Shown: in pieces, positions 27,037-44,690 of the stretch
How the letters are laid out: each line of letters opens with the position of its first letter
How positions within the stretch are numbered: position 1 is the stretch's first letter
Assembly: GCF_000378245.1 (NCBI RefSeq)
Contig: NZ_KB899491.1
Coordinates: forward strand, 310,001-374,000
Direction of reading: 5' to 3'
Origin: Aromatoleum toluclasticum ATCC 700605
GTDB taxonomy: Bacteria > Pseudomonadota > Gammaproteobacteria > Burkholderiales > Rhodocyclaceae
DNA length: 64,000 nt
Notes under the pieces: generated by a model
What the model saw: the letters and a program-made list of their open reading frames with translations, nothing else
What the model was told of the DNA's origin: nothing
The model's database searches: none
Translations under genes and position numbers: made by a program

Positions 27037-27827
27037 GTGCAATGCTCAGAGCGCTGTGGAACTACCGTGGTTTCATCCTCGGCAGCGTCAAGCGTGAGTT
27101 CCAGTCGAAATACCGCAACTCGCTGCTGGGCGCAGCCTGGACCGTGCTCAATCCTCTGGCGATGATTCTCGTCTATACCGTGATCTTCGCCGAGGTCATG
27201 CGCGCCAGGCTCCCCGGTGTCGACAATGGCTTTGCCTACAGCATTTACCTGTGCGCGGGCCTTCTCACCTGGGGCCTGTTCGCCGAGATCATCGGACGCG
27301 GTCAGAACGTCTTTCTCGAGAACGCGAACCTCCTGAAGAAGCTCAGCTTCCCGCGCATGTGCCTGCCGGTGGTCATCATCCTGAGCGCACTGCTCAACTT
27401 CGCCATCGTCTTCGGCTTGTTTACGGTTTTCCTGCTGGTCTCCAGTAATTTTCCGGGTGATGCCTTCCTGGCGATGCTGCCCCTTCTGGCTATCCTCGTA
27501 CTGTTTTCGATCGGGCTCGGGATTACGTTGGGCGTGCTCAACGTGTTCTTTCGCGACATTGGTCAGTTTTTCGGAATCTTCATCACCTTCTGGTTCTGGC
27601 TCACGCCCATCGTCTATCCCGTGTCGGCTCTGTCGGACGGAATTCGCGACGCCATGGTCTGGAATCCGATGGCAGCGCTGATGGAGGGATTCCAGCAGAT
27701 CTTCATCGCCAACCGCTGGCCCCAATGGGAAAACCTGTGGCCCATAACGCTGTTGGCGCTCTTTCTGTGCGTAACCGGGCTGGGGCTCTTCCGCCGCCAT
27801 GTCGGTGAAATGGTGGACGAACTCTGA
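27033..27827 (+). CDS. wzm: ABC-2 type polysaccharide exporter, permease
   Basis: A 264-residue integral membrane protein with about six helices and the ABC-2 family start (YRGFILGSVKREFQSKYRNSLLG, seen as KREFQSKYRNS). With Wzt it exports a complete undecaprenyl-linked O-polysaccharide to the periplasm. The ATG at 27033 overlaps the manB stop, and its TGA overlaps the wzt ATG. The presence of this pair means that at least one glycan is made by the ABC route, not by Wzx/Wzy. Confidence 0.92.
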   Translation: MSAMLRALWNYRGFILGSVKREFQSKYRNSLLGAAWTVLNPLAMILVYTVIFAEVMRARLPGVDNGFAYSIYLCAGLLTWGLFAEIIGRGQNVFLENANLLKKLSFPRMCLPVVIILSALLNFAIVFGLFTVFLLVSSNFPGDAFLAMLPLLAILVLFSIGLGITLGVLNVFFRDIGQFFGIFITFWFWLTPIVYPVSALSDGIRDAMVWNPMAALMEGFQQIFIANRWPQWENLWPITLLALFLCVTGLGLFRRHVGEMVDEL

Positions 27828-29092
27828 TGGGTAGCATCTCCGTAAGCAATCTCGGCAAGGCATATAAGCAGTACCCCACACGCTGGTCCCGTCTGCTGGA
27901 GTGGATCACCCCGGGCCACAAGCCGCACCACACCCTGCGGTGGGTGCTGCAGGACGTCTCCTTCTCGGTTGAACCGGGCGAATCGGTCGGTATAGTCGGC
28001 GTGAACGGTGCGGGCAAGAGCACGCTGCTAAAGATGATTACCGGCACCACGCAACCCACCACCGGCGGTGTCCATGTCAACGGACGAATCGCTGCGTTGC
28101 TTGAACTCGGCATGGGGTTTCATCCCGATTTCACGGGTAGGCAGAACGTGTTCATGGCCGGCCAGTTACAAGGGCTTACGGTGCGGCAACTGATGGAGCT
28201 CATGCCGGAAATCGAACGGTTTGCGGATATAGGCGATTACATAGACCAGCCCGTTCGCGTCTTCTCGAGTGGCATGCAGGTGCGCCTCGCTTTTGCCGTT
28301 GCGACTGCGCTCAGGCCCGACATTCTTATCGTCGATGAGGCTCTTGCCGTTGGCGATGCCGCATTTCAGCGCAAGTGCTTTCGGCGGATCGAGGAGTTCC
28401 GTGCGCAAGGGACAACACTGCTCTTTGTTAGTCACGATGTCGACTGTGTTAAGAAGCTCTGCAGCAAAGCGCTTTTTTTGAAAGACGGGTGCGTCGCTGC
28501 GTTCGGCGTCGCCAAGACCGTCTGCGATATGTACGAAAAGGCTTTGTTCGGAGGGTTAGAGGGTATTTCAGCGGGTGTAGACATAGACGCACGCCTATTG
28601 GAACCTCTTGTCGACGAAAGCCTGATGAGTAATTGCGAAGTCGCTTACGGCGACGGTCGTGCGGTAATCGAAGCGATCTGGCTGGAGAATGAGCGGGGCG
28701 AGCGTGCGAATGTCTTTGGCAGTCGTGGTCTGCTTGTTTTGAAATACCGCGTACGCTTTAACGAAGCGGTCGGCCGGATCGCGTTCGCATTTATGGCTAA
28801 GACGCGCGATGGGGTCGCGTTGTTCGGCATGGATACGTCGCACATGCCTGAAATTAACGGCCGTGCGTTTGCCCTCGGAGATATCTTCATCGCACGCTTT
28901 GAACTAGAAAACGCGTTTGCTCCAGGGGTTTACTATATCAATTGTGGTATTCGCGACGATAGCGCCGATCCGCCGGTATTCCTGCATCGCAGGGTGGATT
29001 CGGTACTTTTTCGTGTTAAGTCGGATGAGCTCACGTTTGTAAAATCCGGCGTGATCAATACCGTCGCTGCATTCGAGTTGGCTTCAGCATGA
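27827..29092 (+). CDS. wzt: ABC-type polysaccharide exporter ATPase with C-terminal glycan-binding domain
   Basis: A 421-residue ATPase. Walker A GVNGAGKST (58-66), signature FSSGMQVRLAF and Walker B ILIVDEALAVGD lie in the first 240 residues. The last 150 residues form a separate beta-rich Wzt-C-like domain. In E. coli O9a and O8, such a domain recognises the chemical cap at the non-reducing end and so licenses export only of finished chains. That feature is important because the next gene looks like a capping enzyme. The last third of the gene is visibly A+T-richer than manB. Confidence 0.92.
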   Translation: MGSISVSNLGKAYKQYPTRWSRLLEWITPGHKPHHTLRWVLQDVSFSVEPGESVGIVGVNGAGKSTLLKMITGTTQPTTGGVHVNGRIAALLELGMGFHPDFTGRQNVFMAGQLQGLTVRQLMELMPEIERFADIGDYIDQPVRVFSSGMQVRLAFAVATALRPDILIVDEALAVGDAAFQRKCFRRIEEFRAQGTTLLFVSHDVDCVKKLCSKALFLKDGCVAAFGVAKTVCDMYEKALFGGLEGISAGVDIDARLLEPLVDESLMSNCEVAYGDGRAVIEAIWLENERGERANVFGSRGLLVLKYRVRFNEAVGRIAFAFMAKTRDGVALFGMDTSHMPEINGRAFALGDIFIARFELENAFAPGVYYINCGIRDDSADPPVFLHRRVDSVLFRVKSDELTFVKSGVINTVAAFELASA

Positions 29093-30951
29093 CAGACCAC
29101 ACGACACTCGCTGGGGAAACGTTGGCCCCAATATTCATCCACTCGTTGTTTCGCGCCGGAAGTACGTACCTATTCAACGTCTTTCGGCGGTCAAGTGACG
29201 GGTATTGGTGTTATCAGGAACCTTTACATGAGGTTGCGCTACTCGCGCGTGCAAACCCCGAAAACCTTTTGGCGTTTCGCGGTGAGTATGTTAAGCATCT
29301 GAGACATCCGGCCATCGAGGTGTCCTACTTTCGTGAGCTTTACGATGTGTCTGACGCCTGTCTGGATAAGCTTTCGAAAGAGGCTATCTATGATGGATAT
29401 TTCGGTTGTGTCGGTGATTTTGGGCTGAATTACTGGGCGGCGCTTATCGCTGCGGCAAAGGGGCGTCCGGTAATTCAGGAATGTCGTACCTCATCGCGAA
29501 TTGGAGCGATGAAGAATGCCCTCGGGGGCTATCATATTTACTTGTGGCGCAATCCTTGGGATGAGTGGTGGTCCTATAAGGTCACCGATTATTTTGATGC
29601 GACGAGCCAACTGTTTCTAAATGCGCCCTCGCGTCCTCCTGTGATTGAGCGGCTGCGTCGCGAAATCGCGTTCGAAGGATTCGAATCGGACGATCTGAGT
29701 GCCCAGATAGATTGGTTCATCAAGAGGCGTCTTGCGCCCGAACAGTCCTACCTTATCTTCTATGTACTTTGGATTCTAGGGTTGGGAGAGGCGGTAGCCA
29801 ACGCTAATCTGTTGCTGAACATCGACCGCATGAGCGACAGTGCGGAATACCGGAACGAGATTGCGAGTAAGCTGCTGGCGAGTGGGGCAAAGGGACTCAA
29901 TTTCTCGGACTGTTCGGTGCCGCAAACCTGCTATGGCGACGGTGATCGAGAATTTTTTGAACGCATTGAGGACAAGGCGCACGGACTGCTGCTTTTGTCA
30001 GGAACGACGCAGCGCGAACTCGACCAATTACTGACGTTACGCCGAAGTTCCGAACCCCTAACTTGGCGCGAGTGCGCCGCGCGCGCAACTTGTGGAGGAT
30101 CAATCCGAGACGCCGATCGGGCACGGGCGTTGGTCCTAACGGGTGAGCGCCGTGAGGTCGAGTTGCGCTCGCAATTCGCAGAGCAGAGTCGGGTGCTGGA
30201 ACAGCGCACGTGTTCCGCAGAGGAGCGAGCCGTGAAAGCGGAGGCACTCCTTGCGGAGTTGCGAAATGGACTTGCTGCTGCTACGAGGCGATCCGAGGAA
30301 CTCGCTCGTCGGGCGGCGGTGGCCGAAGCGACGTCCGCGGAGATGGGTAACAGGTTCACGGCGGCTGAGGAGAAGTGGCAGCACGAAGCTGCATTGGTGG
30401 GCGTCCTCCATGCTGAGCGCGATGAATTGCAGCGGATGCTGGCGGAAACGCGGGGTAGTGTCCACTACTGGCGTTTGGAGTCCGATCAGTGGCACGAACG
30501 GCTCTTGTCCGTTCATCGCAGCAGTTCATGGAGGATAACAGCCCCGATTCGGGCACTGAAGCGGGTCGTCAAAGGCGATCTTTCGCCAATGCGACGGACT
30601 GCCGGATGGGCTGTGACGGGAGTTCGGAGGGCTCTGCGTCGGCCAGCAGTCGCTGCCGCTCGTATCGTGTTGAATCAGCCGAGGCTGCGTCACAAGATCA
30701 GCACGTCCCTCCGCAAGTATCCTGGCCTGCGGCAGCACCTTGTGCTGTTCGTGCGTAACGCAGGTCTTATGCCTGACGCAAGCACTGTCGCGCTAACAGC
30801 ACACCGAAAAGCAGATCCAGTGACTAACTCCCCCGGTACTGAGCTTTTGCATGAGACGTTCAACCCGGAGTTGGCGCATATGACCGCTTCGGCGAGGCAG
30901 ATCTATGTGGATCTCAAGGTTGCCATCGAAGCCAAGAAGAGGAATAGCTGA
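29089..30951 (+). CDS. Sulfotransferase-like protein with long coiled coil, possible chain terminator
   Basis: A 620-residue protein not known to me as a named family. The first 300 residues look like a PAPS-dependent sulfotransferase: a phosphosulfate loop HSLFRAGSTYLFNVF (19-33) and a 3'-phosphate motif LWRNPWDEWWSYK with Arg154 and Ser162. Residues about 345-475 are rich in heptads of Glu/Arg/Leu/Ala and predict a coiled coil. SSSWRITAPIRAL (478-490) is the tail motif often seen in O-antigen assembly proteins. It sits between wzt and a multi-domain glycosyltransferase, the place of the ruler-type terminator WbdD in E. coli O9a. A sulfate-adding cap is an inference. The ATG overlaps the wzt stop. 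Confidence 0.65.
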   Translation: MTDHTTLAGETLAPIFIHSLFRAGSTYLFNVFRRSSDGYWCYQEPLHEVALLARANPENLLAFRGEYVKHLRHPAIEVSYFRELYDVSDACLDKLSKEAIYDGYFGCVGDFGLNYWAALIAAAKGRPVIQECRTSSRIGAMKNALGGYHIYLWRNPWDEWWSYKVTDYFDATSQLFLNAPSRPPVIERLRREIAFEGFESDDLSAQIDWFIKRRLAPEQSYLIFYVLWILGLGEAVANANLLLNIDRMSDSAEYRNEIASKLLASGAKGLNFSDCSVPQTCYGDGDREFFERIEDKAHGLLLLSGTTQRELDQLLTLRRSSEPLTWRECAARATCGGSIRDADRARALVLTGERREVELRSQFAEQSRVLEQRTCSAEERAVKAEALLAELRNGLAAATRRSEELARRAAVAEATSAEMGNRFTAAEEKWQHEAALVGVLHAERDELQRMLAETRGSVHYWRLESDQWHERLLSVHRSSSWRITAPIRALKRVVKGDLSPMRRTAGWAVTGVRRALRRPAVAAARIVLNQPRLRHKISTSLRKYPGLRQHLVLFVRNAGLMPDASTVALTAHRKADPVTNSPGTELLHETFNPELAHMTASARQIYVDLKVAIEAKKRNS

Positions 30952-33900
30952 TGCGCATCGTAATTGATATGCAGGGCGCGCAGACAGAGAGTCGATTTCG
31001 CGGCATCGGTCGTTATTCTATGTCGCTTGCCTTGGCGATCGCACGAAACCGAAATGACCACGAAGTTATACTTGCACTAAGCGGACTATTTCCCGATACG
31101 ATCGAGCGCATTAGAGCCGTATTCGACAGCGTATTGCCGCAAGAAAACATTCGTGTGTGGCATGCTCCCGGCCCTGTTCGTGAAATGGAATCGAATAATA
31201 CTCGGCGCAGGGCCGCGGCTGAGCTCATTCGTGAAGCATTTCTGGCTAGTCTGAGGCCGGACGTTATCCATGTTACCAGCCTCTTCGAGGGCTATATTGA
31301 CGATGCGGTTACGAGCGTCGGCCGTTTCGATCAGTCCACCTTAGTCAGCGTGTCGCTGTATGACCTCATTCCGTTACTGAATCCTGATCATTACCTCAGG
31401 CCAAATCCGACCTACGAGAAGTTTTATTTCCGTAAATTAAAGGATCTCGCGCGCGCTGATGCGTGGCTTGCGATTTCAGACTTCTCCCGCCGTGAAGCGC
31501 TTGAGTATCTGGATGTTCCAAGTTTCGATGCCGTGAACATTGGTACTGCGGTTGACGATTGTTTCAAATCGTTAGGCATTGTGAATGAGGATGCAAAGTT
31601 CGTAGAAAAAAAGAATGGAATTTCTCGTCCTTTTGTGCTATATGCGGGCGGGTCAGACGAACGAAAAAATCTCCCTCGCCTGATTCAAGCGTATGCATGC
31701 TTGCCTAGGATTCTAAGAAAATCTTACCAGCTAGTTCTGGCCGGAAAATTTTCCGAAGGTGATATCAGCATATTGTTGAGCCATGCTTCCGTCGCAGGTC
31801 TGGATGATGATGAACTTCGGTTTACTGGCTACATCACCGACCAAGAGCTCATCGGGCTTTATAATCACTGCGAACTTTTTGTATTCCCGTCGTGGCACGA
31901 AGGCTTTGGTCTTCCAGCGCTCGAAGCCATGGCGTGCGGAGCTGCAGTAATCGGTGCGAATACCTCCAGTCTGCCCGAAGTCATTGGGCGAGAAGACGCC
32001 CTGTTTGATCCGTACGATGTCATGAGTATTGCGGGAAAGATGGAGCAAGCATTGTCAGACGAGGCATTTCGTCGTGACCTTGAGGCTCACAGCCTTGCTC
32101 AGGCGAAACGTTTTTCGTGGGATTCGAGTGCGAGACGTGCGATTGTCGCGTTTGAGCGATTATACGAACGGACGCGCAACGTCGTGCCGCAGAAACTTAA
32201 ACAACGAGAAATTGTTTCCAGATTGGTTCGCGCTATTGCATGTGGGAACGATGCGACGAATCTAAGTGACGCCGACTGCGTAAGCATCTCGGCCGCAATC
32301 GCAAGGAACCATCCCGATCCAGAGCGTCGACGCAGAATTTATGTCGATGTTTCCGAACTGGTGCGGCGCGACGCTAGAACGGGCATTCAGCGCGTTACGC
32401 GGGCCATTTTGTGGGAACTACTTTCAAATCCTCCGGCAGGATACGTTGTTCAAGCAGTTTACTCGACAGTAGGTAGCGGAACGTACAGACAAGCAAATAC
32501 TTTTACGCGTGGTTTTTTTGGTGACGTCTTGATCGATGAGCCGGATAGCGTCCTTGAGCCACAATCAGGAGATATATTTATTGGGCTTGACCTCCAGCCA
32601 CAGATAGTCCCTGAATGTCGTGATTACTATCAATCGCTGCGCCATCAAGGTGTTCAGGTTTTCTTCGTGGTTTATGATCTGCTTCCAATAAGTCATCCAA
32701 GTTCATTTCCAGTGGGGGCGAGCGAGTCCCATCTTCATTGGCTAGAGGTCGTGACCGAAGCAGATGGCGTGGTTTGCATCTCTAAGGCCGTTGCGGACGA
32801 TTTGCGCAACTGGATGAATTCCAAGCTTAAGTTGTGTAGTCGCCCGTTTGCGTTGAGGTGGTTCCACCTAGGCGCTGATATACGGAATTCGGCACCGACC
32901 CAAGGGCTGCCCCCGGAAGCCGATAAAGTTTTGGAAGTAATCCGATCAAGACCGACTTTCCTGATGGTTGGTACCGTCGAACCTCGGAAGGGGCACGCGC
33001 AGGCCTTAGCTGCATTTCAATCGTTGTGGGCACAAGGCAACGACCTCGGATTAGTTATCGTGGGCAAGCGTGGGTGGGCGGTTGACCTCTTAGTGGCGTC
33101 TCTTGAGGCGCACGCTCAGCGCGGTAAGCGTCTGTTTTGGCTCGAGGGAATAAGTGACGAGTACCTTGAAAAAATTTATTCCGTTGCTACTTGTTTGCTT
33201 ATGGCGTCAGAGGGTGAGGGATTTGGCTTGCCCTTGATTGAAGCAGCACAACATGGATTGCCAATAGTTGCTCGGGATCTTCCGGTCTTTCGGGAGATTG
33301 CTGGTGAAAATGCTTTTTATTTCAATGGAACAGCTCCTGACGCACTTCGATCAGCGATCGCAGAGTGGCTGTCCGCGCACGATGAAGGACGGGCGCCGTC
33401 ATCGGCAAGGATCCAATCGTTGACCTGGGCCGAGAGCGCCCAGCAGTTGATTGCAGCGATACTTGGAGATGAGGAGCGGTTGGGAAATCGTGGAACGGAC
33501 GATGAGCGGGTGATCGCCGCGAAACGTTCCCGAATGGGCGGAGATCGTCGTCCGGGTGTCCTTCTTCTGTCGCCTTACCCGATCCGTAGGCCCCGTCATG
33601 GTGGGCAATTGCGGACGGATGCAGTCCGAAAGGCGTTCGAAGAGGTCGGGAATAAAGTGCGCGTCGTCGGATTTTACCAATCCGAGGCATATAGTCGGGA
33701 AGATCTTGGTCCGTTTGATATTGAGTTTCCTCCCGATAGTCGATTCCGCCTCTACCGCGGCAAAGTCCTTCCTGCACTGTCTGATTTTCTTATGGCAGAT
33801 TTTGCTGTGTCAGATGAAGAAATTTTCCGCAGAGTTGCAAATTGCGTTGACGTTGACGTCGACGTAATTGTCGTAGAGCAGCCATGGTTCTATCCGCTTG

Positions 33901-34784
33901 CGAAGCGGCTTAAGCGTGAGGTGCCGCGATGTCGAAATTCGGTCGTCGTCTTTAGTTCACAGAATATTGAAGCGCCAATGAAACAGCAGATTCTTGAGTC
34001 TGCGACGGATAGCGAACTAGCGCGCTTGGCAATTGCGGATATTTCAGCATTGGAGCGCGCGGCAGCGCAAGAGTCCGATCTCAGCGTGGCCGTTACGAAT
34101 GAAGATGCGGAGGTATTGCGTGGTTACGGGGCGGCAAATGTGATCGTGGCGCGGAACGGGATAAGCCCTTGGGTTGCGAGTTCCGAGAGGCGAGAGGCAT
34201 GGCGGGCGAAGTTGCCTAGTCGTCCTTGGCCGCTTTTTATTGCGAGCGCGCATCCGCCAAATTTCACCGGATTCATTGACTCGCTCGGAGACGCTCTTGC
34301 ATGTATTCCGCCTGGGTCGAAACTAGTCGTCGTTGGCGGCGTCGGTCCCTGCCTTATGCAGGAATTTTCAAAATCTCGTTGGCGCGATCTGAATCTATCG
34401 CGCTTGCTTGTGCTCGGGGTCCTTGATGACGCCGACCTCTCGGCAGTAAAAAGTTTAGCTCACGCTTTTCTACTACCAATAGGTGCAGGCGGCGGGTCGA
34501 ATATTAAGACTGCAGAGGCGCTATATTCAGGTAAACAGGTAATTTGCACTAGTGTGGCGCTTCGTGGGTTCGATGCGTATCGCTCGATGCCAAGTGTGTG
34601 GGTCGCAGACACGCCAAGAGAATTTCAGGCGGCGATTCGCACAGTACTCGGCGTAAGTGGACGGACAGAGCGCGAAATTGAAACAGATGACACTTTGCGA
34701 CGGCAGTTGTTATGGGACGTAAGTCTGCGCGTGCTACCGGAGGAGGTGTCACGAATATTGGGTATTCAAGGGGGCGCACAATGA
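30951..34784 (+). CDS. Three-domain GT4-type glycosyltransferase
   Basis: A 1277-residue fusion of three GT-B glycosyltransferases. Domain 1 (about 1-400) has GIGRYS and HEGFGLPALEAMACG; domain 2 (about 460-850) has TGIQRVTRA, GTVEPRKGH and GEGFGLPLIEAAQHG; domain 3 (about 867-1277) has the weaker PIGAGGGSNIKTAEALYSG. Domains 1 and 2 look like mannosyl/rhamnosyltransferases of family 4. Fusions of this kind (WbdA type) polymerise repeating units in ABC-exported O antigens, each domain making a different linkage. It starts one base inside the previous stop codon and ends with an ATGA overlap to the next gene. Base composition is A+T-rich here. Confidence 0.85.
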   Translation: MRIVIDMQGAQTESRFRGIGRYSMSLALAIARNRNDHEVILALSGLFPDTIERIRAVFDSVLPQENIRVWHAPGPVREMESNNTRRRAAAELIREAFLASLRPDVIHVTSLFEGYIDDAVTSVGRFDQSTLVSVSLYDLIPLLNPDHYLRPNPTYEKFYFRKLKDLARADAWLAISDFSRREALEYLDVPSFDAVNIGTAVDDCFKSLGIVNEDAKFVEKKNGISRPFVLYAGGSDERKNLPRLIQAYACLPRILRKSYQLVLAGKFSEGDISILLSHASVAGLDDDELRFTGYITDQELIGLYNHCELFVFPSWHEGFGLPALEAMACGAAVIGANTSSLPEVIGREDALFDPYDVMSIAGKMEQALSDEAFRRDLEAHSLAQAKRFSWDSSARRAIVAFERLYERTRNVVPQKLKQREIVSRLVRAIACGNDATNLSDADCVSISAAIARNHPDPERRRRIYVDVSELVRRDARTGIQRVTRAILWELLSNPPAGYVVQAVYSTVGSGTYRQANTFTRGFFGDVLIDEPDSVLEPQSGDIFIGLDLQPQIVPECRDYYQSLRHQGVQVFFVVYDLLPISHPSSFPVGASESHLHWLEVVTEADGVVCISKAVADDLRNWMNSKLKLCSRPFALRWFHLGADIRNSAPTQGLPPEADKVLEVIRSRPTFLMVGTVEPRKGHAQALAAFQSLWAQGNDLGLVIVGKRGWAVDLLVASLEAHAQRGKRLFWLEGISDEYLEKIYSVATCLLMASEGEGFGLPLIEAAQHGLPIVARDLPVFREIAGENAFYFNGTAPDALRSAIAEWLSAHDEGRAPSSARIQSLTWAESAQQLIAAILGDEERLGNRGTDDERVIAAKRSRMGGDRRPGVLLLSPYPIRRPRHGGQLRTDAVRKAFEEVGNKVRVVGFYQSEAYSREDLGPFDIEFPPDSRFRLYRGKVLPALSDFLMADFAVSDEEIFRRVANCVDVDVDVIVVEQPWFYPLAKRLKREVPRCRNSVVVFSSQNIEAPMKQQILESATDSELARLAIADISALERAAAQESDLSVAVTNEDAEVLRGYGAANVIVARNGISPWVASSERREAWRAKLPSRPWPLFIASAHPPNFTGFIDSLGDALACIPPGSKLVVVGGVGPCLMQEFSKSRWRDLNLSRLLVLGVLDDADLSAVKSLAHAFLLPIGAGGGSNIKTAEALYSGKQVICTSVALRGFDAYRSMPSVWVADTPREFQAAIRTVLGVSGRTEREIETDDTLRRQLLWDVSLRVLPEEVSRILGIQGGAQ

Positions 34785-36352: not shown

Positions 36353-37306
36353 ATGCGAGTTGCTAATAGAAAAAGGGTGATGGTCACTGGTGGTGCGGGC
36401 TTCTTGGGGTCGCATCTGTGTGAGAGATTGCTAGAAGACGGGTGCGACGTTCTTTGCGTGGACAATTTTTACAGCGGGACGAAGGATAATGTTGCTCATT
36501 TAATGAGTAATCCGCATTATGAGCTGATACGCCACGATGTAACCTTCCCCCTCTATGTAGAAGTCGACGAAATCTACAATCTGGCATGTCCGGCATCGCC
36601 AATCCATTACCAGTGGGATCCAGTTCAGACCACAAAAACTAGCGTTCATGGCGCGATCAACATGCTGGGCCTGGCTAAACGTACAAAGGCGAAGATTTTG
36701 CAGGCCTCAACCAGTGAGGTTTACGGCGATCCAGAGGTTCATCCGCAGCAGGAAAGTTATTGGGGGCATGTCAATCCGGTTGGTATTCGGTCCTGCTACG
36801 ATGAGGGAAAGCGCTGCGCAGAGACGCTGTTTTTCGATTACTACAGGCAACACGGACTGGAAATTAAAGTTGTCCGAATATTTAACACCTATGGACCACG
36901 GATGCATCCGAACGATGGCCGTGTTGTGAGTAACTTCATCGTTCAGGCGTTGCGTGGCGACGATATCACCATTTACGGCGATGGGTTGCAAACCAGAAGC
37001 TTCTGCTATGTTGATGACTTGATCGAAGGCTTTGTCCGCATGATGGGAAGCCCGAAGGACGTGACCGGTCCGATCAACATGGGCAATCCAGTTGAGTTCA
37101 CGATTAGAGAGCTTGCGGAGACCGTCTTGAAGATGGTCGGCGGAAAGTCAAAGCTCGTCTTCAAACCATTGCCGCAAGACGATCCTAAACAGCGGCAGCC
37201 GAACATTACGCTCGCAAGAGAAACACTTGGGTGGGAACCCCGCGTGAGGCTCGAAGCGGGGCTTGAAAAGACAGTCGGTTACTTTCGGAACTTCCTCGCG
37301 CTATGA
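36353..37306 (+). CDS. uxs: UDP-glucuronate decarboxylase (UDP-xylose synthase)
   Basis: A 317-residue extended SDR enzyme with [10 protein letters not shown] (NAD site), [11 protein letters not shown], the family hallmark [12 protein letters not shown] and catalytic Y in SCYDEGKR. These are the signatures of UDP-xylose synthases, which decarboxylate UDP-glucuronate to UDP-xylose. I chose the ATG at 36353, preceded by AAAGAAAGG; the frame is open back to 36239 but that part has no family likeness. It is coupled by ATGA to the GT2 gene, which hints that UDP-xylose is the donor for that enzyme. Confidence 0.92.
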
Positions 37307-38274
37307 GTTTCGGTCAGCATCAGGTGATCATCGTCACGCCGGTTTACGAGGACGTCGAGGCGAGTAGCCGATTGTTCAAAGAACTGTCGGCCCAATTCAA
37401 CGATGACGTATTTGTCGTTGCGGTGGACGACGGCTCGGTGAAGCAGCCGCTAGACGTCTCCAGCCTCGAAGGCGCGTGCATCGAAGGGGTGATTCTCAAG
37501 CTTCGGCGTAACGTGGGCCACCAGCGGGCGATCGCGATTGGGCTGGGGTACGTCTCGGAGCGCATACAGCCACATCAGCGGGTGGTCGTCATGGACTCCG
37601 ATGGTGAGGATCTGCCGGGTACGATTCCTGAGCTTCTGGAGCGATTGGTTGCCGACGATGTCGACGTCGTCGTTGCGCAACGCAAGAGCCGCGTCGAAAC
37701 CTTTCGGTTCAAGGCATTTTATGCGGCCTACAAGAGCTTTTTCGGGCTGATGACCGGCAGGGCGATCAGCTTCGGCAACTTCATGGCGCTCAAGGCTCAT
37801 GCGGTGAAGCGGCTCGTGGCCATGCAGGAGTTGTCGATACACGTTGCAGGAGCGGTACTGGCCTCAAAACTCCGCACAGAAACGCGCCCGCTGAATCGCG
37901 GGCCCCGGTATGCGGGCCAATCAAAGATGAATTTTGTCGGGCTGGCCTTGCATGGGTTCAAGGGGCTGATGGTCTTTGCCGAGGACGTTCTTGTGCGCGT
38001 GGGCATCGCGTGTGCGATTATTGCGACGCTCTCCGTTCTCGGTGCCGTCGCCGCGGTCATCCTGAAACTGCTCGGCTTCTCCACGCCAGGATGGTTCTCG
38101 GTGGCACTGGGGATACTGGTCTTGATGTTCCTTCAGACCGGTGCGCTTGCGCTGATGACGTTGATGCTGACAGGCGTAGTGCGGGGCGGAACGGTGACAA
38201 CGGCAATTGCGTACCACGAGTTCGTGGACTACGTGATTGAAACGAAAGTCTCTCTTCTGGCAAGAAGCGCGTGA
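37303..38274 (+). CDS. GtrB/ArnC-type polyprenyl-phosphate glycosyltransferase (GT2)
   Basis: A 323-residue enzyme with a GT-A catalytic domain ([21 protein letters not shown] with DxD) and two C-terminal membrane helices (about 235-262, 268-295). GtrB proteins transfer one sugar to undecaprenyl phosphate on the cytoplasmic face. Gene overlaps with uxs and gtrA (GTGA) suggest that the sugar is xylose. This specificity is inferred from context only. Confidence 0.87.
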
Positions 38275-38657
38275 AATACCACCAGAGCGAGTTGATGCGA
38301 TATGCGATCAACGGCGTCGTCGCAACAGCGGTGCACTATGGCGTCCTGACGATTAATTTGCGCGTACTCGAGTTCTCATCCGCCGGGCTGGCTAATCTAG
38401 TCGCCGCACTCTTCGGTATAACAGCTTCCTTTCTCGGTAGCCGTTATTTCGTCTTTCAGAAGGCTGATGGTTCGCTCTTGCTGCAAGCGATGAAGTTCAG
38501 CGGTCTGTATGGCGCGATAGCTGTCCTGCACGGGGTGATATTGCTGGTCTGGACGGACTGGATGCGGTATGACCACCGCGCGGGTTTTCTGATAGCCACG
38601 CTAATCCAGGTCGCACTGAGCTATGTCGGTAATAGAAGAATGGTGTTCAACGTATGA
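38271..38657 (+). CDS. GtrA-family lipid-sugar flippase
   Basis: A 128-residue membrane protein with four helices and the GtrA look (RYAINGVVATAVHYGVL; FLGSRYFVF; VGNRRMVFNV). GtrA moves the undecaprenyl-phosphate monosaccharide to the periplasmic side. The start is a GTG that overlaps the GT2 stop codon (GTGA), and the stop overlaps the next gene (ATGA). It completes the standard GtrA-GtrB pair of O-antigen modification clusters. Confidence 0.9.
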   Translation: MKYHQSELMRYAINGVVATAVHYGVLTINLRVLEFSSAGLANLVAALFGITASFLGSRYFVFQKADGSLLLQAMKFSGLYGAIAVLHGVILLVWTDWMRYDHRAGFLIATLIQVALSYVGNRRMVFNV

Positions 38658-39250
38658 AAATAAGCCGTGCGACGGCGGCCACTGTGCTATTCGTGGTCTT
38701 GCTGGTTCTGATCTATTGGCTGCATATTGCCTACCTCAAGGTTGACGTTGTTTTTTATTCAGCTATTGCGGACGGCGTTTTGGCAGCATCGATCTCCGGT
38801 GTGGTGTTGTTCGCGACCCCCTATTTTTCCTCGTTAAACAAGTTTGAGAGAACCCAGCTCGTCGTGATCTGGCTGCTTGCCGGCTATGGTTTCGCAATTT
38901 CTGTTCCGACGGTTATTGACAGGTCTTTGTCGTTTTACATTCTCGAAAAGCTTCAGCAGCGCGGTGGGGGAATTAGGCAGGATGCTTTCGAATATGTATT
39001 CACAAAGGAATACGTTCGGGAGCACCGGTTAGTTGACGTCAGGCTGACCGAGCAACAAGAGTCGGGGACGGTTGTTATAAGGGATGGATGCGTGAAGTTG
39101 ACAGCGAAGGGCGACAAGCTTGCATCCTTTAGTCGGATGTTTAGGCGAAATTTCTTGCCAAGGGAACGTCTTCTCATGGGTGGGTATTCGGATGATCTCA
39201 CAGATCCGTTTCGCACCTCAATCGAACAACCTCAATATCTGTGCAAATGA
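38654..39250 (+). CDS. Unknown membrane protein of the modification cassette
   Basis: A 198-residue protein that I do not recognise. Three hydrophobic segments lie in the first 100 residues (about 8-28, 38-56, 70-90). A soluble, charged C-terminal half with EYVFTKEYVREH and VKLTAKGDKLASFSRMFRR follows. It is locked between gtrA and the large membrane protein by ATGA overlaps on both sides, so it should act with them. A helper of the periplasmic glycosyl transfer step is possible. Confidence 0.6.
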   Translation: MKISRATAATVLFVVLLVLIYWLHIAYLKVDVVFYSAIADGVLAASISGVVLFATPYFSSLNKFERTQLVVIWLLAGYGFAISVPTVIDRSLSFYILEKLQQRGGGIRQDAFEYVFTKEYVREHRLVDVRLTEQQESGTVVIRDGCVKLTAKGDKLASFSRMFRRNFLPRERLLMGGYSDDLTDPFRTSIEQPQYLCK

Positions 39251-41043
39251 GTGCGTCTATAAAGTCCGTCACGATGGCTCAACTCGCTGTCGTAACGCTT
39301 ATGCTTCTTATTGGGTGCCTCGCTCTTGGCATAATGGTGTGGCCTCCCATGTTTTCGGCTGTAGACTTCCCAGCGTGGGGAGGGGATTGGTCAAAATTCG
39401 TATGTAAGCTACGAGAGAACAATGAGTGCGGCGCGCTCAGTAAATTTCCTGTTGCATATCTCGCAGTTTCCTTCATTGTTTCGCTGCTAGGTGGCGGTTC
39501 CGCTAGCAAGGTGCTGCTGTTTAGTCTCAATGTTGCTTTTCTCTTGCTGCCCGTAGCTCTTGCTTTCAGAATTCTGGATATTCGGCTTGCCAAGGCGGGA
39601 ACTCTTCTCTATACGGCGGCGATCCTTTCATCAGTGGTGCCGCCGTTTTATTTGTATTCAGGCGGGCTTGAAGTGCAGTCCGGCGTAATACTTGGGTTGT
39701 TTGTCGTTTTGATTGTTTTGTCCGTCGTCTATCGGCAGAAGTCGACCTTATTTGTTCCTGCCTTATTTCTTTGCTCCTTGGTCGGTCCTTGGTACAAAGA
39801 TACAAACATCTTGGTGATGTGTGCAGCCATTTGCAGTGTCTACGCGTGGCGTGCGAAGGCGTCCGGCATGGGGTTCGTGAAGACTTTTGTCGCTGAAAGG
39901 AAGTTAGTCATAGCATTTGCTTTCGGGGCGTTGATCGCGATCATAGTTGCGGTTGCCTACAATTATCTCAGATATGCATCGTATCTGCCTGTGCCCTATA
40001 TGGTTGAAGCTGCGGAGGCGTCCCCAGATCTCAGGCTTAGCAGCGTTTATTTTTTGGCATCCATTTTTTCACCGAGCGGCGGAGTCTTGGTGGCGTGGTC
40101 GTTATCGGTTTGTGTGTTGTTCATAATAGGTCGTTCAGTCGGTTACTGTTTCTCACGAGGCGCCTTGTGGTTAGCAGCTGGGATATTGCTTCTTCAGCTC
40201 GGGGCTTTCTCTCGGTGGTGGACTCCATTCGGGTGGGAGGGGTGGGGTAATAGACTAATTATTCCGGCGGCGATTGCGGGTCTCATTATTGTGATTTTCA
40301 CGGGGTCTCGTCACCCTAAGGATGATTTGGCGTCGATGGTGGGGAGGGAGGCCCTTTTAAAGAGGGGGTGGAACAACTGGTTTGTGACGCTTTTGTGTGT
40401 TCCCCTATTTCTCGTCTCAGGGAGCTATGTGATCAGATCCTATTCTAAGGAGCGCGATCTACTTCTCGATCAGTCGATGTGGGGGAGCGATGCATGCCAA
40501 GCGATGCGGATTGTCAGGGCGAAGTATGATAGTTGGGCGTTCAAGAGAACCGACGTTCACAGGCAATGCCATTTTGAGAGATTTCAATATTGGCCAGGAA
40601 AGCAGGTGAAGGTGTTGCCGATGGCCATCGTTAACGCCGGACAACGCGTGGAAATTAAAGCCGGAAATTCCGGGGGCGTGCTAGGGCGCGGATGGTCAGA
40701 ACTTGAAGAGTGGGGTGTCTGGTCTGAAGGCAACGTAGCGGAAATTAGATTTGTCCCCTCTTCTGCAGTTGAGAGGCTCTCCTTGGAGCTGCAACCATTT
40801 GTTGCGGGAAGTCTTACGTCCCAAGGCGTAAAAATTTACGTTGACGATGTAGAAGTGGACCGGGTGGAGTTGGTCGAACTGAGCACTGTTACGGTCCAGC
40901 TGTCAAATCCAAATGTCTTTGATGGAAAAAAATTGCTTTCGCTACGGTTGCATCTTCCGCAGGCGGCGTCGCCACAGAGTCTCGGCGTTAATTCGGATCA
41001 AAGGCGTATTGCCGTGGGGCTGAGGGCGGTATCCTTCGAGTGA
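39247..41043 (+). CDS. Large membrane protein, candidate GT-C glycosyltransferase of a gtr cassette
   Basis: A 598-residue protein with about ten to eleven helices in the first 420 residues and a beta-rich C-terminal periplasmic-type domain (about 430-598). The last gene of gtr clusters is a serotype-specific GT-C enzyme that moves the sugar from the lipid carrier to the O antigen. A pair of acidic residues in the first loop (VDFPAWGGDW) may serve as the catalytic site. The family is not certain. It ends the coupled cassette; a 310-bp gap follows. Confidence 0.6.
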   Translation: MSASIKSVTMAQLAVVTLMLLIGCLALGIMVWPPMFSAVDFPAWGGDWSKFVCKLRENNECGALSKFPVAYLAVSFIVSLLGGGSASKVLLFSLNVAFLLLPVALAFRILDIRLAKAGTLLYTAAILSSVVPPFYLYSGGLEVQSGVILGLFVVLIVLSVVYRQKSTLFVPALFLCSLVGPWYKDTNILVMCAAICSVYAWRAKASGMGFVKTFVAERKLVIAFAFGALIAIIVAVAYNYLRYASYLPVPYMVEAAEASPDLRLSSVYFLASIFSPSGGVLVAWSLSVCVLFIIGRSVGYCFSRGALWLAAGILLLQLGAFSRWWTPFGWEGWGNRLIIPAAIAGLIIVIFTGSRHPKDDLASMVGREALLKRGWNNWFVTLLCVPLFLVSGSYVIRSYSKERDLLLDQSMWGSDACQAMRIVRAKYDSWAFKRTDVHRQCHFERFQYWPGKQVKVLPMAIVNAGQRVEIKAGNSGGVLGRGWSELEEWGVWSEGNVAEIRFVPSSAVERLSLELQPFVAGSLTSQGVKIYVDDVEVDRVELVELSTVTVQLSNPNVFDGKKLLSLRLHLPQAASPQSLGVNSDQRRIAVGLRAVSFE

Positions 41044-41355: not shown

Positions 41356-42522
41356 ATGAAGATCGCTATTGCGGGTACGGGCTATGTCGGGCTTTCAAAT
41401 GCTGTTTTGCTCGCGCAGAGCAACGAGGTGGTCGCCCTAGATATTGCGTCCGAGAGAGTTGAAATGCTCAATCGCAGACAGTCTCCTATCGTCGATTCGG
41501 AAATCGAAGAATATCTTCAGAGACGTTCTCTGGATTTGCGCGCTTCGCTTGATAAGCGTGATGCTTACTTGGGGGCCAAGTACGTCATTATTGCAACTCC
41601 TACGGACTACGATCCAGAAACCAATTACTTCAACACTGAGTCCGTAGAGTCTGTCATTCGAGATGTGATGACGATCACTCCCAGTGCGGTTATGGTTATC
41701 AAGTCTACCGTGCCAGTCGGGTTTACCGTCAAGATGAAGGCAAAGTTCGGCTGCGAAAACCTGATTTTCTCGCCGGAATTCTTGCGTGAAGGGCGCGCAC
41801 TGCATGACAACCTTTACCCGTCTCGCATCGTCGTCGGGGAGCGTTCGCAGCGGGCACATGTGTTCGCCGAGCTGTTGAAGCGGGGGGCGCTGAAGAAGGA
41901 TATTCCCACGCTGTTTACCGATCCGACAGAAGCCGAGGCGATAAAGTTGTTCGCCAACACGTACTTGGCCATGCGGGTGGCGTTTTTCAATGAGCTGGAC
42001 ACTTACGCGGCGAGTCACGGCCTGGATACGAGGCAGATTATAGAAGGAGCCGAGCTCGATCCGCGTATTGGGAAAGGGTACAACAACCCTTCTTTCGGTT
42101 ACGGGGGGTACTGCCTGCCTAAAGATACTAAGCAGCTACTTGCGAACTATCGTGATGTTCCGCAGAATCTTATTCACGCCATCGTAGAGGCAAACACGAC
42201 GCGAAAAGACTTCATCGCGGACAGCATTCTTAAGCGTAATCCGAAGGTTGTCGGTGTGTATCGGTTGATCATGAAGGCTGGTTCGGATAATTTCCGGGCT
42301 TCCAGTATTCAGGGCATCATGAAACGCATCAAGGCGAAGGGAGTTGAGGTCATCGTATATGAACCAGTCCTGGAAGGTAGCGAATTCTTTAAGTCGCGAG
42401 TCGTAAATGACTTGGATGCATTCAGGAATGAAGCTGACGTAATCGTGGCAAACCGACTCACGGATGACCTAAGGGGGGTTGAAGAAAAGGTCTACAGTCG
42501 GGATCTGTTTGGCGATAACTGA
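41356..42522 (+). CDS. ugd: UDP-glucose 6-dehydrogenase
   Basis: A 388-residue NAD-dependent dehydrogenase with GTGYVGLSN (NAD site, 7-15), PEFLREG, and the catalytic Cys in [13 protein letters not shown] (about 256). It oxidises UDP-glucose to UDP-glucuronate. This product feeds both the uxs enzyme (UDP-xylose) and the epimerase at 23 kb (UDP-galacturonate), which ties the two ends of the locus together. The length fits the short Ugd type of enteric bacteria. Confidence 0.94.
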
Positions 42523-42672: not shown

Positions 42673-43782
<1,110 letters not shown>

Positions 43783-43793
43783 CCGTGCATGCG

Positions 43794-44690
43794 ATGAAGC
43801 GAGCGCTGATTACCGGCGTCAAGGGCTTTACCGGCCGGTACGTGGCTGCGGAATTGGAGGCACACGGCTGGGAAGTGTGGGGCACGGGCGCGCACGACGA
43901 CGAAGCCGGAGATGCCCTGTATCGGCACGTCGACCTGGCGGACGTCGCCGGCCTGCGAGAGGTGATCGCCGAGGTGCGGCCGGATGCGGTGGTGCACCTC
44001 GCGGCGATTGCCTTTGTCGGGCATGGCGATGCCGACGCCTTCTATCGCGTCAATCTGATCGGCACGCGCAACTTGTTGGCCGCGCTGGCTGCCGCTGAGC
44101 AGCGGCCTGAATGTGTGCTGCTGGCGAGCAGCGCGAACGTCTACGGCAACGCGACCGAAGGGGTCCTGAACGAGTCGATGCTGCCGAATCCGGCCAACGA
44201 CTATGCGGTCAGCAAGCTTGCGATGGAGTGGATGGCGCGTTTGTGGATGGACCGATTGCCGATCGTGATCGCGCGCCCGTTCAACTACACGGGCGTGGGG
44301 CAGGCCGAATCCTTTCTGTTGCCGAAGATCGTCGCGCATTTCCGCCGGCGGACGGAGACCATCGAGTTGGGTAACCTGGATGTCTGGCGCGATTTTTCGG
44401 ATGTGCGTGCGGTGGCTCGCGCCTACCGTCGCCTGCTCGAAGTCCGTCCCGTGGGTGATACGGTCAACGTGTGCTCGGGGCGCACGCATTCGCTACGCGA
44501 GGCCTTGGCGATGGCGGAGGCGATTACCGGGCACGCGATGCGCGCGGAAGTGAATTCGGCGTTTGTCCGTGCGAATGAGGTGCGAAGCCTGTGTGGTGAT
44601 CCAGCAAAGTTGCGTAGGCTGATCGGCGACTGGGATAGCCCTCCGCTTGAAGAGACGCTGCAGTGGATGCTTCAAGGGGTTGCCGATTGA
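43794..44690 (+). CDS. rmd: GDP-4-keto-6-deoxy-D-mannose reductase
   Basis: A 298-residue SDR enzyme with GVKGFTGRYVA (cofactor site), SSANVYGN and catalytic DYAVSKLAME. Together with the gmd neighbour this fits Rmd, giving GDP-D-rhamnose; the alternative partner Fcl (GDP-L-fucose) has a different sequence pattern. The ATG at 43794 is taken; TTG 43779 and GTG 43785 are in frame ahead. Its stop overlaps a TTG that likely starts the next gene. Confidence 0.85.
   Translation: MKRALITGVKGFTGRYVAAELEAHGWEVWGTGAHDDEAGDALYRHVDLADVAGLREVIAEVRPDAVVHLAAIAFVGHGDADAFYRVNLIGTRNLLAALAAAEQRPECVLLASSANVYGNATEGVLNESMLPNPANDYAVSKLAMEWMARLWMDRLPIVIARPFNYTGVGQAESFLLPKIVAHFRRRTETIELGNLDVWRDFSDVRAVARAYRRLLEVRPVGDTVNVCSGRTHSLREALAMAEAITGHAMRAEVNSAFVRANEVRSLCGDPAKLRRLIGDWDSPPLEETLQWMLQGVAD

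Follow-up and report, generated by a model that had tools for sequence, protein, structure and literature searches.

A gtr-like gene cassette with its own UDP-xylose synthase: a candidate system for lipid-linked xylosylation in Aromatoleum toluclasticum

Within a 64,000-nucleotide stretch of the genome of Aromatoleum toluclasticum ATCC 700605 (contig NZ_KB899491.1, positions 310,001 to 374,000; referred to here as the window, with coordinates counted from its first letter unless another locus is named), a gene for a UDP-xylose synthase (uxs) overlaps a gene of the gtrB type, which is followed in turn by gtrA, an unnamed gene that we call X, and a gene for a large membrane protein. The arrangement poses the question of which sugar this GtrB-type enzyme loads onto its lipid carrier, and for which acceptor that sugar is destined. 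Gene order, family membership and the recurrence of the same association in other genomes make it likely, in our view, that the five genes form a gtr-type transmembrane glycosylation cassette that provides its own sugar supply and works by way of lipid-linked xylose.

The cassette and its proposed pathway

The cassette spans positions 36353-41043 on the + strand (Table 1). As the preliminary description of this DNA had stated, neighbouring genes share four bases at all four junctions, which we have read directly: ATGA at 37303-37306 between uxs and gtrB, GTGA at 38271-38274 between gtrB and gtrA, ATGA at 38654-38657 between gtrA and X, and ATGA at 39247-39250 between X and the large-protein gene. 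Because of the last of these overlaps, the large-protein gene most likely starts at 39247 rather than at the mechanically chosen 39241. The placing of ugd downstream in that description also holds; the gene begins 312 bases past the cassette end and lies outside the overlapping unit.

A phmmer search of solved structures gives human UDP-xylose synthase 1 (UXS1) as the best match to Uxs (E 3.9e-125, residues 5-315 of 317), and inspection of the alignment by eye finds the stretches STSEVYG, YDEGK and QTR common to the two proteins; the start that we have chosen for uxs is the methionine at which, also by eye, conservation among homologues (for example in loci L016 and L023) begins. GtrB matches PF00535 (E 2.2e-11, 44.4 bits against a cut-off of 23.3), the Synechocystis GtrB structure 5ekp (E 1.6e-12) and ArnC structures, and its sequence thus places it among GT2 enzymes of the GtrB/ArnC type. 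GtrA belongs to PF04138 (61.5 bits against a cut-off of 26.1), a family membership from which its role as a flippase is predicted. Ugd exceeds the cut-off of TIGR03026 (334.6 bits against 189.8) and matches NF011631, UDP-glucose 6-dehydrogenase, at 678.7 bits, under that model's cut-off of 757. No second close copy of either uxs or ugd was found in the genome, where the next best matches are 28% and 33% identical, respectively.

In the pathway that we propose, Ugd would produce UDP-glucuronate and Uxs would convert it to UDP-xylose in the cytoplasm, after which GtrB would transfer the xylose onto undecaprenyl phosphate and GtrA would flip the lipid-linked sugar to the periplasmic side of the membrane. 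The 598-residue protein would then transfer xylose onto the O-polysaccharide after its export by Wzm/Wzt, the acceptor probably being a chain that contains D-rhamnose.

Co-occurrence of the four core genes in other genomes

One scan, in which a GtrB alignment was run against named genomes, yielded 438 relatives, and our locus counts use the best 80 of these (L016-L095); they include two loci from one metagenome-assembled genome (MAG; L069 and L074) and one, L075, that is the same region as L005. Three loci with weak X matches in which neither gtrB nor uxs was seen (L007, L014 and L015) are left out of the counts. As controls we used 40 loci around more distant GtrBs (26%-37% identity), hand-picked from the match list; 13 of these gave no gtrB match in tblastn, and four (L128, L130, L131 and L132) are contigs shorter than 7.5 kb. 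The limit for calling uxs was 55% identity in the 80 loci and 45% in the controls. Excluded from the controls were the nearest two relatives, G479 and G491, around which X was already known; in G491 uxs adjoins gtrB, and in G479 there is no uxs nearby and one elsewhere in the genome.

The survey of genomes for the uxs-gtrB-gtrA order that the preliminary description had suggested is clearly positive, with the order uxs-gtrB-gtrA-X kept in 50 of the 80 loci and gtrB-gtrA-X in 71. In 58 loci uxs stands immediately upstream of gtrB, with the same orientation, and in another 5 it has a different place within the locus; gtrA is present in 72 and X in 75, while neither uxs nor X occurs in any of the 40 control loci; the association of uxs with gtrB (58/80 against 0/40) exceeds chance. 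Eleven of the 17 loci without uxs sit in genomes that have it elsewhere, at 67-78% identity, such that uxs is found in the locus or genome for 74 of the 80 loci, as compared with 113 of 398 genomes of a phylum sample (E <= 1e-100). When starts are chosen mechanically, a four-base overlap joins uxs to gtrB in 29 of 83 loci and gtrA to X in 58 of 83, a set that counts the shared region of L005 and L075 twice. Taken together, the sequence comparison supports xylose as the predicted donor sugar.

The same genes also occur in other orders. On a Hirschia baltica plasmid the annotated order is X, a glycosyltransferase (gtrB), GtrA and a UDP-glucuronic acid decarboxylase (uxs) that is 75.5% identical to the window Uxs over 306 residues; its glycosyltransferase is distant, having a long branch in the tree and missing the E <= 1e-30 limit of our plasmid search for GtrB, which returned a single record, from Azospirillum. 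This plasmid, of Azospirillum lipoferum 4B, carries a dehydrogenase (ugd), a decarboxylase (uxs; 73.5% identity over 310 residues), a membrane or hypothetical protein and gtrB, with gtrA on the opposite strand. In L058 and four Stenotrophomonas loci, uxs follows X on the opposite strand. Loci without an adjacent uxs cluster in the GtrB tree no more than shuffled labels do, with long branches leaving the deep part of the tree unsure. Copies of the cassette are also seen in MAGs labelled Actinomycetota, Bacteroidota and Campylobacterota (L054, L022, L049 and L056).

Two candidate signatures fared less well. The motif DSDGED was rejected as a mark of xylose-specific GtrBs, being selected for by the sequence patterns of the scan itself and present also in controls without uxs: the 27 control GtrBs with a visible match comprise four with DSDGED, two with DGDGED, 14 with DADLQD, and seven with another string or none found. 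The GtrB relatives with D[SG]DGED in place of DADLQD and no uxs nearby are those of L127, L129, L130, L131, L133 and L134. Fifteen of the 80 loci have a methyltransferase homologue (E <= 1e-15, query counted), which in six cases stands between gtrB and X, but the presence of the same family in 4 of the 40 controls weakens it as a xylose-specific partner. Examples within or beside the cassette include L044 7963-8673, L042 8360-9175 and L073 9242-9955.

A different short-chain dehydrogenase/reductase (SDR) is encoded at L019 12188-13060, directly after ugd, and at L056 3629-4516. By eye, the L019 protein reads SSTKFG where UXS has STSEVYG, though UXS1 is among its best solved matches; the GtrB of this locus is 79% identical to that of the window.

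Protein X and the large membrane protein

Searches of Pfam (E <= 1) and of NCBIfam (at the cut-offs of its models) assign protein X to no family. An AlphaFold2 model built from 63 sequences (mean predicted local distance difference test score, pLDDT, 87.3) has long helices at residues 2-27, 33-54 and 63-83, followed by a helix and strand domain in winged-helix order. For model residues ~82-170 the listed fold matches are mostly winged-helix regulators, and the likeness to MarR/PadR-like regulators is one of fold matches only (Z up to 10.7, Foldseek best E 0.08), in rows that cover mainly residues 79-179 and barely test the membrane part. Cys146 and Cys197 are both kept in 61 of the 63 sequences, the two exceptions ending early or without the tail. 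The mean number of lysines plus arginines is 1.84 at the N terminus, 0.98 in the loop between helices 1 and 2, and 2.30 in that between helices 2 and 3; the segment past the third helix averages 3.65, which fits a periplasmic placement less well. Because of the cysteine pair and the charge distribution we infer that the winged-helix domain faces the periplasm, and this predicted topology does not suggest that X is a DNA-binding regulator. We regard X as a conserved fourth component of the system, possibly an adaptor facing the periplasm.

Among the window genome and its 60 nearest relatives X is confined to two, the genome of the window and that of a member of its family. None of the 16 other genomes of the genus has it. 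The family relative, Uliginosibacterium aquaticum, carries uxs-gtrB-gtrA-X together with another large membrane protein, gmd and rmd. A class sample gave 2 of 369 genomes (the window's own and one weak match) and a phylum sample 5 of 398 (its own, two strong and two weak matches). In the genus Stenotrophomonas, that of Stenotrophomonas cyclobalanopsidis, 19 of 91 genomes have X, a proportion that fits a variable O-antigen trait. The plasmid search found X in one record, and a search of viral contigs (with a two-row alignment) and phages gave no match.

The large protein is predicted to be a GT-C xylosyltransferase with a C-terminal non-membrane part. Pfam gives only a sub-threshold match to DUF7024 in the C-terminal part (23.4 bits against a cut-off of 24.4). 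The corresponding cassette of Stenotrophomonas sp. 278 encodes a homologue, 34% identical, that stops before the C-terminal tail. Apart from the window frame itself, the loci retrieved contain three homologous frames, and 150 genomes of the order gave, beyond the self-match, two weak matches confined to the tail. Near the first predicted loop the window protein and this homologue have D40 and D47 in common, a pair that we take to be reminiscent of the acidic motif in GT-C enzymes. We note that an 833-residue membrane protein is encoded upstream of the Uliginosibacterium cassette (L005 4525-7026); by eye, its end is similar to the tail of the window protein.

O-antigen setting, alternative explanations and related systems

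By their sequences, the surroundings of the cassette have the make-up of a cluster for a D-rhamnose-containing O polysaccharide exported by an ATP-binding cassette (ABC) transporter. Gmd matches TIGR01472 at 460.2 bits against a cut-off of 415, and the C-terminal domain of Wzt matches Wzt_C at 81.6 bits against 30.4; a wzm-like permease frame, recognised by eye only, ends at 27827 and adjoins wzt. The cluster also contains ManC, a phosphomannomutase, group 1 glycosyltransferases, a PF00953 initiating transferase and a WbpM-like PF02719 protein. Some cluster proteins may be given the names Rmd, WbpL and WbpM, and the cluster can be compared with one of Pseudomonas. Across the intervals from 27 to 43 kb the G+C content is 0.50-0.58, as compared with 0.62-0.68 in those at 20-22 kb and 43-55 kb. 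The gene that separates wzt from the glycosyltransferase genes encodes a 620-residue protein (29089-30951) with no Pfam match at E <= 0.001 and, by eye, a sulfotransferase-like start; the 1277-residue protein at 30951-34784 has several group 1 glycosyltransferase domains on one chain.

Table 1. Genes of the cassette and of the flanking O-antigen cluster, in window coordinates.
Feature	Coordinates	Strand	Basis
uxs, UDP-glucuronate decarboxylase / UDP-xylose synthase, 317 aa	36353..37306	+	phmmer against solved structures
gtrB, GT2 polyprenyl-phosphate glycosyltransferase, 323 aa, predicted to make undecaprenyl-phosphate-xylose	37303..38274	+	PF00535, structures, ATGA overlap
gtrA, predicted flippase, 128 aa	38271..38657	+	PF04138, GTGA overlap with gtrB
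X, unnamed, 198 aa, with three membrane helices and a winged-helix domain (both predicted)	38654..39250	+	conservation, AlphaFold2, fold matches
Large membrane protein, 598 aa, predicted GT-C xylosyltransferase, C-terminal non-membrane part	39247..41043	+	ATGA overlap with X
ugd, UDP-glucose 6-dehydrogenase, would supply UDP-glucuronate	41356..42522	+	TIGR03026, NF011631
gmd and rmd-like gene, predicted GDP-D-rhamnose synthesis	42745..44690	+	gmd by TIGR01472; rmd by place and SDR family only
wzt, ATPase of O-polysaccharide ABC exporter	27827..29092	+	Wzt_C PF14524, ABC_tran

Several observations weigh against a lipid-linked xylose pathway as we have drawn it. The genome search gave no uxs for 6 of the 17 loci that lack it locally, all six being MAGs by title, and L019 and L056 have, without a detectable uxs, the different SDR beside the cassette; this SDR may provide another sugar supply, such that the donor there may differ or change. 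The wider GtrB clade with D[SG]DGED takes in control loci that have no uxs nearby. X is missing from three of the five genomes searched for having an X-less locus (for Roseibium, from three of the four genomes whose uxs-gtrB locus is without it), and is not annotated in the Azospirillum lipoferum plasmid stretch. Large membrane proteins are not conserved, in that only 25 of 61 judgeable loci have a multi-helix frame next to X (51 of the 61 have one somewhere on the + strand), and the AlphaFold2 model of the window protein, made from a two-row alignment, has a pLDDT of 38.2 and no usable fold. Finally, the copies in MAGs assigned to other phyla may reflect wide transfer or binning errors.

These points invite other explanations. 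UDP-xylose could feed a glycosyltransferase that builds the backbone in the cytoplasm, with GtrB handling a different lipid sugar such as glucose and uxs standing beside it only through the clustering of O-antigen genes; the several group 1 glycosyltransferases of the cluster would be candidates for this. The position of uxs directly upstream of gtrB in most of the related loci and its absence from all of the controls nonetheless make this unlikely, as does the fact that uxs accompanies gtrB in other gene orders, also where no gmd or rmd was seen. We give little credence to a modification of our proposal in which xylose is only the parent of a methylated or epimerised lipid sugar, or in which this GtrB subfamily takes several UDP-pentoses. 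The methyltransferase genes of some loci and the SDRs of L019 and L056 point in that direction, as does the 3-O-methylxylose of Stenotrophomonas maltophilia O8 (PMC5932162; this and the papers below are cited from excerpts), but among the five cassette proteins of the window none except Uxs has a Pfam family of methyltransferases or epimerases, and the methyltransferases, occurring also in controls, are not specific to xylose. Identity of the system with the pentofuranose pathway described by Kelly and others (2024), in which undecaprenyl-phosphate-xylofuranose would be the donor, is highly improbable: both would add xylose from a lipid-linked donor outside the cytoplasm (PMC11127046), but that pathway starts from phosphoribosyl pyrophosphate (PRPP) and employs a synthase unlike GtrB and a MATE flippase, where the cassette has a GT2, GtrA and a UDP-xylose synthase. 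The Pfam search of the five cassette proteins, to which this comparison was confined, gave neither PRPP-dependent polyprenyl phosphoribose synthase families nor MATE flippase families.

The preliminary description's reading of a UDP-xylose-fed gtr cassette is thus supported by the genome comparison and by the O-antigen cluster, while the parts of it in which GtrB would use UDP-xylose and the O antigen would be the acceptor stand as predictions. More tentatively, and as a possibility that we do not press, the cassette may represent a widespread four-component xylosylation system, consisting of Uxs, a dedicated undecaprenyl-phosphate-xylopyranose synthase, GtrA, and a membrane-anchored X with a periplasmic winged-helix domain and a nearly invariant cysteine pair. 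Its core would have moved among many lineages of Pseudomonadota while the final transferase was exchanged, and it would explain how rhamnose O antigens, those of Stenotrophomonas for example, come by their xylose branches. The cassette offers a testable gene set and a genomic marker by which to predict xylosylated surface glycans in many genera, and it ties a conserved unnamed protein family, X, to predicted xylosylation.

Several O antigens are known to bear xylose as a side branch. In Stenotrophomonas maltophilia the O antigen has xylose as an established component (PMC5932162), and there are indications of it for Xanthomonas translucens (PMC8042644); Ralstonia solanacearum has L-xylose (PMC10450222), which would not be a direct product of the proposed pathway. 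According to a study of Xanthomonas campestris, synthesis of the rhamnose main chain does not depend on that of its side branches (PMC4878081). In the open-access literature we found no paper joining UDP-xylose, GtrB and GtrA, and, among the papers listed by our searches, none on a gene set for adding xylose branches from lipid-linked xylopyranose; the sole match to the name of a lipid-linked xylose is the furanose pathway (PMC11127046).

Among known systems, multi-component transmembrane glycosylation in Gram-positive bacteria follows the logic of lipid-phosphate-sugar, flippase and GT-C enzyme that we predict here, and the review of these systems allows for more than three components (PMC8035078); the sugars and acceptors are different, and no X homologue is mentioned in the excerpts of that paper. 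Like the pathway proposed here, the O1/O2 pentofuranose system of Citrobacter youngae works in the periplasm, where a polyprenyl-phosphate donor provides the pentose for a side branch of the O chain, and its glycosyltransferase bears a carbohydrate-binding part that may parallel the predicted non-membrane tail of the large protein, but it uses a PRPP-derived furanose, a PPPRS synthase, a MATE flippase and a GT136 enzyme (PMC11127046). The galactosylation of Klebsiella O antigens resembles the window system in being a three-component modification of an ABC-exported O chain, although its sugar is galactose, and uxs and X are unmentioned in the excerpts of PMC11127046. Given galactose in Klebsiella and a pentofuranose in Citrobacter (PMC11127046), the earlier restriction of standard gtr clusters to glucose is too narrow. 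The human UXS1 family, to which Uxs is similar over nearly its full length, is here represented by a copy embedded in a bacterial gtr-like operon. A close parallel in organization is the three-component gtr glucosylation of O antigens, in which a GtrB-type GT2, GtrA and a variable large membrane protein are likewise encoded in one operon; to this the window adds a uxs gene overlapping gtrB, the protein X, the setting of an ABC-exporter cluster and a predicted xylose donor. What is new is the tying of the sugar supply to gtrB across many lineages, together with X as an unnamed partner.

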